From Jeotgalibaca arthritidis (GTDB lineage: Bacteria > Bacillota > Bacilli > Lactobacillales > Aerococcaceae), in NCBI RefSeq assembly GCF_011100465.1, contig NZ_CP049740.1, positions 1,728,001 through 1,792,000 of the forward strand: 64,000 nt of DNA, given 5' to 3'. The translations under genes and the position numbers were made by a program. Within the stretch, counting starts at the first letter, position 1; each line of letters starts with the position of its first letter. A model generated the notes under the pieces. That model worked only from the letters and a program-made list of their open reading frames with translations. It was not told where the DNA came from and searched no databases. Below, piece after piece: positions 11,743 to 26,873 of the stretch.

Positions 11743-11767
11743 GTAAACAAATGGTAACTATGTTTAC
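11743..11767. promoter_or_regulatory. Inverted repeat GTAAAC-N13-GTTTAC next to the -35 box
   Basis: A perfect 6-bp inverted repeat, 11743-11748 and 11762-11767, ends 1 bp before the TTGACG -35 box of the ytmP promoter. It lacks a T run, so an operator is more likely than a terminator. Confidence 0.35.
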
Positions 11768-11768
11768 C

Positions 11769-11797
11769 TTGACGGAATGACGAAATGAACCTAAAAT
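11769..11797 (+). promoter_or_regulatory. Promoter for the ytmP leader
   Basis: TTGACG (11769-11774), exact 17-bp spacer, TAAAAT (11792-11797); predicted transcription start near 11804. Confidence 0.7.
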
Positions 11798-11803
11798 AAA
11801 TGG

Positions 11804-12025
11804 TAGACTATTATGCCTGCTTAGGCAGGGCGATTAAAGACGATTAGAACGGATAGCTGTAGAATGGAATGAAGTGACTTTTCCCGTATATAAGTGCGTA
11901 AGCGCGGAAAGGTCACTTTCGTTTCCATACGGATATGATTGAGGATTGGGCATTCCGTTCTCCAATTCACTACATTGAGCATCGATGCGTCAATCAGAAA
12001 TGAGAATGAGTAAGGAATGAACAAC
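11804..12025 (+). ncRNA. Long structured leader or small RNA upstream of ytmP, class unknown
   Basis: About 220 nt of non-coding transcript lies between a good promoter and ytmP. Helices visible by eye: CCTGC/GCAGG with a TTAG loop (about 11817-11830); AGAACGGA (11846-11853) with TCCGTTCT (11954-11961); and, nested inside, a long rod in which ATGGAA, GAAGTGAC and TTTTCC (from 11864) pair with GGAAAG, GTCACTTTC and TTCCAT (to 11928), with single-base bulges. GATT/GACG (11832-11842) can also pair with CGTCAATC (11988-11995). No T run follows, so it is more likely a 5' leader than a free RNA. The rod-with-bubble shape resembles 6S RNA but sequence identity to 6S is not recognised. Confidence 0.6.
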
Positions 12026-12826
12026 ATGGACTATAAGATGGATTCGGGGTGGAAACTTCATCCCATTGGAGGAGATACAGGGCATGCTTATATGGGGGTA
12101 CGAGCGGAAGAGAAGGTCTTCTTGAAACGCAATTCGTCACCTTTTTTAGCTGCGCTCTCGGTTGAAGGTATTACACCGCGTCTGATTTGGACGAAACGAA
12201 TCGGTAACGGTGATGTTCTGACAGCTCAAGAATGGTTGAATGGCCGTGTTTTAAATGGGGACGAGATGCAATCGGAAGAGATTCTTTCTTTGCTTAAGAA
12301 AATCCATTATTCTGACCATTTACTCAATATGCTCCGTAAGGTAAAAGGACAAGTGTATGATCCAGAAATGTTTATGATGGATTACTTGGCTGATTTGGAT
12401 GAGGAATTGCGGACCAATAGCTTTTTAACGATGGTAGCTACTTATTTAGAGGAGAGTCTGCCTATCATTAAAGGGGCTAAGTATGCTGTTTGTCACGGTG
12501 ATTTGAATCGTAAGAACTTCATTTTAACGAATGACAGTCGCTTGTATTTAGTGGATTGGGAAATGGTGAAAATTGCTGATCCGATGTCTGATTTAGCCAT
12601 GATTTTAGTGAAGTATGTTAATCCTGATCAATGGTATGACTGGCTGAAACGCTATGGTTTACTGCAACCGGAAGAATTAAAAAATAGTATTGAATGGTAC
12701 AGCATGATGAATCGCTTAATTTTGATTAAACGATACCACTCAGCTGGCGAAAATATTAAAATGAATGGACAAATCTTGTTTTTGAAGGAAGCCTATGAAG
12801 ACCGCCTTCACCAGCAAGACAAATAG
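12026..12826 (+). CDS. ytmP: YtmP, aminoglycoside phosphotransferase/choline kinase-like protein
   Basis: Predicted small-molecule kinase of the APH/choline-kinase fold. The catalytic loop CHGDLNRKNF (about residue 153) and metal loop VDWEMVKIADPMSDLA are both present. An ATG at 12017 abuts the AAGGA ribosome site, whereas ATG 12026 has normal spacing, so 12026 is chosen. It precedes trmB as in Bacillus (ytmP-ytmQ); the substrate is unknown. A 220-nt structured leader precedes it. Confidence 0.87.
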   Translation: MDYKMDSGWKLHPIGGDTGHAYMGVRAEEKVFLKRNSSPFLAALSVEGITPRLIWTKRIGNGDVLTAQEWLNGRVLNGDEMQSEEILSLLKKIHYSDHLLNMLRKVKGQVYDPEMFMMDYLADLDEELRTNSFLTMVATYLEESLPIIKGAKYAVCHGDLNRKNFILTNDSRLYLVDWEMVKIADPMSDLAMILVKYVNPDQWYDWLKRYGLLQPEELKNSIEWYSMMNRLILIKRYHSAGENIKMNGQILFLKEAYEDRLHQQDK

Positions 12827-12854
12827 CCCACAGCTGTTTGGCTGGGGCTATTTG
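12820..12854 (+). terminator. Hairpin between ytmP and trmB
   Basis: AAATAGCCC and GGGGCTATTT with AGC/GCT inside form a stem just after the ytmP stop. The T run is only three bases, so it may attenuate or protect mRNA rather than terminate. Confidence 0.5.
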
Positions 12855-12874
12855 AATGAACGGAGGAAAAAAGA

Positions 12875-13516
12875 ATGAGAGTAAGAAATAAACCATGGGC
12901 AGCTGATAAATTAGCTGAACATACCAATTATGTTGTGACTAATCCAGAAGCATTAAAAGGAAAATGGAATGACCATTTTGAAAAGAACCAACCGATTCAT
13001 ATTGAAGTGGGATCTGGTAAGGGCCAATTTATTGTGGGTATGGCTAAGCAAAACCCAGATATTAACTACATCGGGATCGAGCGCCAAACCAGTGTTGCTG
13101 TTATGGCTCTAGATAAAATTTTAGAATCTGAATTACCTAATGTGAAATTATTAAATACAGATGGTGGCTTGATTTCAGATTATTTTGAAGCTGGTGAAGT
13201 AGACCGCGTTTACTTAAACTTCTCTGATCCATGGCCAAAATACAAGCATGAAAAAAGAAGACTAACGTACCGTTCATTTTTAGAAAATTACCAAACTATT
13301 TTGAAAGCAAACGGTGAGGTTCATTTTAAAACGGACAATCAAGGTTTATTTGAATATTCGCTTGGTTCATTCTCGCAATATGGTATGGTTTTAAATCAAG
13401 TTTGGCTTGATCTACATGCCTCAGACTATGAAGGTAATGTTCGAACTGAGTATGAAGAAAAATTTGCTGCAAAAGGGCAACCGATTTACCGAGTTGAAGC
13501 GCAATTTAAAGATTAA
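12875..13516 (+). CDS. trmB: tRNA (guanine-N7-)-methyltransferase
   Basis: SAM-dependent enzyme that makes m7G46 in tRNA. The SAM motif EVGSGKGQF is near residue 48 and the family signature [13 protein letters not shown] near residue 116; a C-terminal TEYEEKF motif is also typical. Length, 213 residues, is normal. The ribosome site is GGAGGAAAA. It ends at a strong terminator. Confidence 0.96.
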
Positions 13517-13568: not shown

Positions 13569-13726
13569 TAGACTAGGGGATTATAAGTTCAGCCATCAAT
13601 GTCTAGCTCCCAAGTCCTGGCCTACTGAAAAAAAGATAAATTTGCCCCATTGCGCGCTTCGCTGCTCATTCAGGGTCAAATTTCCTATTTTTTCATAGGC
13701 CAAGGCGGACTTGTCCGCTTTTCTTA
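13569..13726. repeat. Palindromic intergenic repeat, family 1, copy 1 (short form)
   Basis: A 158-bp element almost identical to 18666-18875 but lacking about 52 bp in its middle. The two arms are imperfect inverted repeats (GGCCTA...TAGGCC, TGAAAAAA...TTTTTTCA, AAATTTG...CAAATTT), so the whole unit can fold on itself; the right end has a small GCGGAC/GTCCGC hairpin. It begins at the last bases of the trmB terminator. No protein is encoded. Confidence 0.85.
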
Positions 13727-13736
13727 TATGGGCAAA

Positions 13737-26603: not shown

Positions 26604-26639
26604 GGTCAGATCATAATAAAAATCGTTGAGAAAGACACA

Positions 26640-26873
26640 CAACTAAAGTGTTATTTGTAGAGAGAGATGGCTTGGTGAAACATCTCAATAAGCTTTGGAT
26701 TGGACCACTTTCGAGAAGACTTTCTGAATTGAGTAGGAAAGGCCGGGCACGCCCGTTATAGCGTCTAAAGAGTTATCAGCCTAATTGGCGGTAACTGAAT
26801 TTGGGTGGAACCACGTTAAATTTGAAGCGTCCCATTTCTAGGTGTCAATGCACTTAGAAATGGGGCTTTTTTG
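26640..26873 (+). promoter_or_regulatory. T-box riboswitch (threonine) controlling thrS
   Basis: The invariant T-box GGGTGGAACCACG is at 26803-26815. Downstream CCCATTTCTA / TAGAAATGGG with a T run forms the terminator (26831-26872). Stem I includes AGAGATGG..., and the candidate specifier triplet is ACC (Thr) at 26704-26706, fitting the gene that follows. Uncharged tRNA-Thr should favour the antiterminator. Confidence 0.93.

Follow-up and report, generated by a model that had tools for sequence, protein, structure and literature searches.

A terminator-like hairpin in the ccrZ-trmB leader of Jeotgalibaca arthritidis as a candidate transcription attenuator

The untranslated leader of the ccrZ-trmB operon in Jeotgalibaca arthritidis probably acts as a transcription attenuator, as judged from its sequence and that of its relatives. 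Between the ccrZ promoter and the gene lies a conserved hairpin with an interrupted U-tract, placed uniquely before ccrZ, and in relatives classical terminators stand at the same place. In the mechanism we propose, polymerase starting at the ccrZ promoter would produce a leader RNA containing the hairpin and the U-tract, which would end some of the transcripts after about 120 nt, and ccrZ mRNA would come only from the readthrough fraction. Because the U-tract is interrupted, NusA and NusG may assist the stop. The arrangement would likely serve to keep CcrZ low, since an excess of the protein is harmful in B. subtilis: according to passages of PMC9135335, CcrZ promotes replication initiation through DnaA, and its overexpression in B. 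subtilis leads to over-initiation, SOS induction and cell elongation.

The window, by which we mean the whole 64-kb stretch of DNA that was analysed, is part of a 2.35-Mb single-contig genome; the features mapped below at the ccrZ locus are on its plus strand. The ecsB stop codon (11728) is followed by the ccrZ promoter, about 220 nt without a gene, and the ccrZ open reading frame. The promoter is of sigma-70 type, with a −35 box TTGACG, a 17-nt spacer and a −10 box TAAAAT (11769–11797). A preliminary description of this DNA had noted a clear promoter before the leader; it is kept in all six Jeotgalibaca-genus species compared and is recognisable at most ccrZ loci of the order. With the start site inferred about 7 nt past the −10 box, the positions of promoter and start codon give a 5′ untranslated leader at 11804–12025. 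The Shine-Dalgarno sequence AAGGA (12012–12016) is kept in relatives. An ORF caller lists the start of ccrZ at 12017; from the Shine-Dalgarno spacing and the relatives, the ATG at 12026 is more likely the true start than the one at 12017, which places ccrZ at 12026–12826. The gene was assigned to the cell-cycle regulator kinase CcrZ/YtmP by NCBIfam NF046102 (E 1e-65, under that model's curated cut-off), and its product is related to the solved structure 7s3l (E 3e-56). It is followed by trmB, encoding tRNA (guanine46-N7)-methyltransferase (12875–13516; NCBIfam NF001080, above cut-off). The preliminary description had read the two genes as a kinase-like protein, ytmP, and a tRNA methyltransferase, but had missed that ytmP is ccrZ. 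Passages of PMC8387234 describe ccrZ and trmB as an operon conserved across Firmicutes. Between the two genes, at 12823–12855, we also observed a hairpin TAGCCCACAGCTGTTTGGCTGGGGCTA with a short T run, possibly an internal attenuator.

Upstream of the −35 box, at 11743–11767, a WalR-site-like sequence TGTAAA-N5-GGTAAC lies inside an inverted repeat GTAAAC...GTTTAC. We did not retain it as a WalR site at ccrZ: the nearest species is the only one that shares it with the window, and passages of the S. aureus WalR paper do not name ccrZ as a target.

Folding of the leader is dominated by a long hairpin, or rod, which with its flanking pairs spans 11863–11928. A rod had been described at 11864–11928, and it is real: the region 11855–11935 folds at −32.7 kcal/mol with a z-score of −4.95, and none of 200 shuffles was as good. 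Taken as a whole, the leader stands out only moderately (z −2.5, matched by 4 of 200 shuffles), so the folding signal is that of the rod. Its base pairs are predicted with a probability of about 1, and folds in which its 5′ arm may not pair are 12–17 kcal/mol less stable. Comparison across the genus defines a conserved core within it, with a 5′ arm GTGACTTTTCC (11874–11884), a 3′ arm GGAAAGGTCAC (11906–11916) and the interrupted U-tract TTTCGTTTC (11917–11925). Two further elements had been reported. The 5-bp hairpin near the 5′ end, CCTGC-TTAG-GCAGG (11816–11829), is seen by both folding and alignment. At least four other genus species have one at the same place, differing in sequence, in an alignment too loose for counting pairs. 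The 8-bp helix enclosing the rod, AGAACGGA (11846–11853) with TCCGTTCT (11954–11961), pairs exactly in the window. Among the other species it persists in the nearest one alone (G002), where one A-U pair has become G-U; the remaining four lack it.

We looked by folding for an antiterminator or other alternative structure competing with the rod and found none; control of readthrough, if any, would therefore be exerted by a protein factor or by polymerase speed. For the same reason, among others, we regard as highly improbable a ligand-sensing riboswitch or a pair of exclusive folds, for instance the enclosing 8-bp helix against a pairing of CAUUCC with the Shine-Dalgarno sequence GGAAUG. These two pairings do overlap in the window and the nearest species, where the ribosome site of ccrZ is predicted to be paired, but neither is present in the other four genus species, and the leader has no conserved, unpaired, aptamer-like core and no Rfam match. 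Rfam searches of the window, the leader and 13 relatives returned only a T-box elsewhere in the window and one chance match; the ccrZ leader itself had none even at relaxed thresholds, which bears out the description of ytmP-trmB as preceded by a structured leader of no annotated class. The identities then suggested for it fared poorly, except that a protein-binding leader may still apply. Besides the riboswitch, a tRNA mimic had been considered, and ARAGORN, which remote mimics would escape, found no tRNA-like gene; a 6S-like RNA is not supported, given the lack of an Rfam match and the fusion of the leader to ccrZ. A search of a plasmid collection gave no match. The T-box is a true T-box leader at 26617–26837 (RF00230, 107.8 bits).

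The leader had also been said to lack an obvious terminator, and here our analysis disagrees. The rod is terminator-like, which the preliminary description missed: it is directly followed by UUUCGUUUC, and together they score above 100 of 100 shuffles, though the U-tract is weak. The score is a simple hairpin-plus-U-tract measure set against 100 dinucleotide shuffles per leader, and it exceeds 99–100 of the 100 shuffles in each of the six genus leaders. The leader stem is stronger than the median of 20 gene-end terminators, all from within the window (−19.2 against −13.3 kcal/mol), whereas 90% of them have a stronger U-tract than UUUCGUUUC (score 3.08 against a median of 4.39). The leader thus has the hairpin and subsequent U-rich tract between promoter and gene that mark an intrinsic-terminator attenuator, with a U-tract that is weak in the window. 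Given this weakness, the stop would probably be partial or assisted by NusA and NusG.

The poor U-tract of the window, and the flanking pairs that run through it, count against attenuation. They would suit a rod that does not terminate and instead stabilises the mRNA or is processed by RNase III: the helix of the window and of the nearest species is long and nearly unbroken, and the U-tract is itself paired. We consider such a role unlikely, as the conserved helix is just 11–14 bp in the other genus species, yet the hairpin and U-rich tail are common to all, and relatives have terminators at the same place.

Attenuation agrees with the way the hairpin is distributed and conserved. All species of the genus (6/6) have a single genomic copy of the hairpin, GTGACTTTTCC...GGAAAGTCACTTTCGTWTC, and it lies before ccrZ. 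Among 76 family genomes searched, the pattern AGTGRCTTTTCC-N3..32-GTCACTTTCSTWTC occurs once in each of the 6 genus genomes, always at ccrZ, and is absent from the 70 others. The idea of a dispersed repeat or regulon was rejected, as the six genomes have no such hairpin at other sites that match the 3′ arm with one mismatch. Across the six species the stem retains 97% of its pairs, 6 of 13 being invariant. A covariation search, which had been proposed with the preliminary description, found these pairs intact, but in the main stem the pair-keeping changes are all one-sided (U-A to U-G and similar), with no two-sided change in the 13 pairs. This has to be counted against attenuation as well, and because of it we take the covariation evidence for an RNA structure as neutral.

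The sequence of stem and tail is strongly conserved in the genus, the U-tract reading TTTCGTWTC in five of the six species and TTTCCTATC in the sixth, while the loop is free in length and sequence. Such conservation, which covers the stem and the CACUUUCGUWUC that follows it, might also point to a separate small RNA, about 120 nt long, that ends at the hairpin and acts in trans, leaving ccrZ to be served by readthrough only; premature termination would release an RNA of this kind anyway. A function in trans nevertheless seems quite unlikely: conservation in the genus is poor over the 5′ part of the leader, the loop varies, the element never leaves ccrZ, and the Bacillales-type relatives described below would release just a hairpin of about 40 nt.

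We compared ccrZ upstream regions from about 150 genomes, in which genera and families are given as handles and the label "Bacillales-type" is our own inference. Most genera of the family have a short ccrZ leader that contains no hairpin and mostly measures 20–70 nt, and so do families f3, f4, f6, f8 and f24; that so many ccrZ genes do without a leader terminator is a further point against attenuation. Terminators do recur in this position across Bacilli, however, a pattern that the preliminary description had not recognised. Within the same family, genus g19 has a terminator-like hairpin between the ccrZ promoter and the gene in 13/13 genomes; this hairpin, AGCTGGGGCTTTCGTCCCGGCT-CCTTCTTTTC, is single-copy and invariant even in the most divergent species. 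The RNAalifold consensus of the whole g19 leader contains little besides the terminator and is unstable when one sequence is removed. A possible g19 leader peptide (AUG near +4, about 20 codons) was discarded: most substitutions, assessed by eye, change amino acids, and one species has no ATG. In genus g3, also of this family, four of the species tested have terminator-like hairpins; these share their position but use two quite different stems.

The same holds beyond the family. In the neighbouring family f2, 17 of 18 genomes carry a terminator-like ccrZ leader hairpin, one of them with a short stem only. It has the form GATAGATGTC-loop-GATATCTGTC-TTTTTTT, mostly with 5–7 U, and begins about 10–16 nt past the inferred start site. 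Both genomes of genus g48 (family f7) have a terminator-like hairpin in the ccrZ leader. The Bacillales-type families f16, f22, f36, f40 and f44 share GATAGCTATTG-loop-CAATAGCTGTC-TTTTTT; where the ccrZ promoter is recognisable, this hairpin starts at about position +1. The U-tracts are strong in f2, g48 and the Bacillales-type relatives. Family f17 has a hairpin with UUUUCUAAU immediately upstream of the ribosome site, and no recognised promoter. Six genomes of the f2 genus g41 (L098, L099, L104, L106, L108 and L109) have a second terminator-like hairpin, CGGG...CCCG-TTTTGCTTTTC, behind the first.

The position of these hairpins also bears on whether the window hairpin is a mere 3′ terminator of the upstream ecsAB transcript. 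No other terminator-like site lies between the ecsB stop and ccrZ, as this explanation would lead one to expect, but the ccrZ promoter precedes the hairpin. Moreover, f2 genomes often have a separate terminator-like hairpin upstream of the promoter and a second at a fixed short distance downstream of it, and the Bacillales-type hairpin begins at about the ccrZ start site. An ecsAB terminator is therefore a very unlikely account.

To what extent are these hairpins related? We built a covariance model, R1, from ten hairpins (eight Bacillales-type and two from g48) and searched it over 200 whole genomes of the class. All ten matches with E < 2e-4 lie directly before ccrZ, and three of these ten best matches (G354, G334 and G382) are in genomes outside the training set. 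At E of about 2e-3 the model found a fourth new ccrZ leader (G373) together with the training genome G211; other weak matches, at E of 8e-4 to 9e-3, are away from ccrZ. The window leader shares the place and the gene, but R1, a model of GATAGCTATTG...CAATAGCTGTC-U6 hairpins, does not find it, and the genus hairpin cannot be aligned with the Bacillales-type hairpin. On sequence grounds we therefore describe the window hairpin as a lineage-specific equivalent at the same place, not a demonstrated homologue.

Among known systems, the closest parallel is the rimP-leader, found before rimP-nusA-infB (Naville and Gautheret 2010, PMC2965389). Like the ccrZ leader, it has a terminator-like hairpin at one gene in many species, with a sequence-conserved stem and no visible antiterminator, and control by a factor or by polymerase speed has been argued for it (PMC2965389). 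The two differ in the gene governed, and in ccrZ leaders strong U-tracts occur only in relatives and stems differ between lineages; the window stem, GTGACTTTTCC/GGAAAGGTCAC before ccrZ, is also distinct from the GGGc...gCCC stem of the rimP-leader. The NusA/NusG-dependent terminators of B. subtilis are marked by interrupted U-tracts and A-U/G-U stem bases (PMC8060035). The ccrZ hairpin resembles them in its interrupted U-tract and weak A-U/G-U pairs, a likeness of sequence by which factor dependence is suggested here. T-box and other Rfam leaders likewise combine a structured leader with a terminator, but they differ in that the ccrZ leader has no Rfam match. We conclude that the ccrZ leader is probably an unannotated member of the intrinsic-terminator attenuators, absent from Rfam. 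In the openly readable literature searched, ytmP appears together with B. subtilis in four papers, none of which links it to a terminator; a 3′ end at this site may already be listed in existing Term-seq tables. Literature passages on CcrZ protein function make no mention of a ccrZ leader.

The interest of this candidate attenuator lies in the gene that it would govern and in its recurrence across lineages. Little is known of how the CcrZ level is set, and a recurrent promoter-proximal terminator offers a directly testable mechanism for low ccrZ, also in genetically tractable relatives. We put forward only tentatively the wider idea that in much of Bacilli ccrZ is throttled by a terminator close to its start site, with readthrough set by NusA/NusG, nucleotide supply, polymerase speed or a dedicated factor that recognises the stem. 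If so, an RNA mechanism would link replication initiation to growth, and the hairpins that do this work would differ from lineage to lineage.

Two further observations concern the surroundings of ccrZ. A dispersed repeat of about 153–200 nt (13575–13735 in the window) has about 40 copies in the genome, 12 of them at 98–100% identity and most others near 75%, and several g19 species carry a similar sequence as an insertion immediately after the leader hairpin. Families f2, f3 and f6 have the motif AAAAANGAACGTATATNCGCTTGACG a short way upstream of the −35 box of ccrZ (L137, L122, L100, L098, L116 and L129–L131 are listed for this site). At the same site f7 has CGAACATATGTTGACTTGAC, which is close to a LexA/DinR box and hints that SOS regulation or some other repressor controls ccrZ there.
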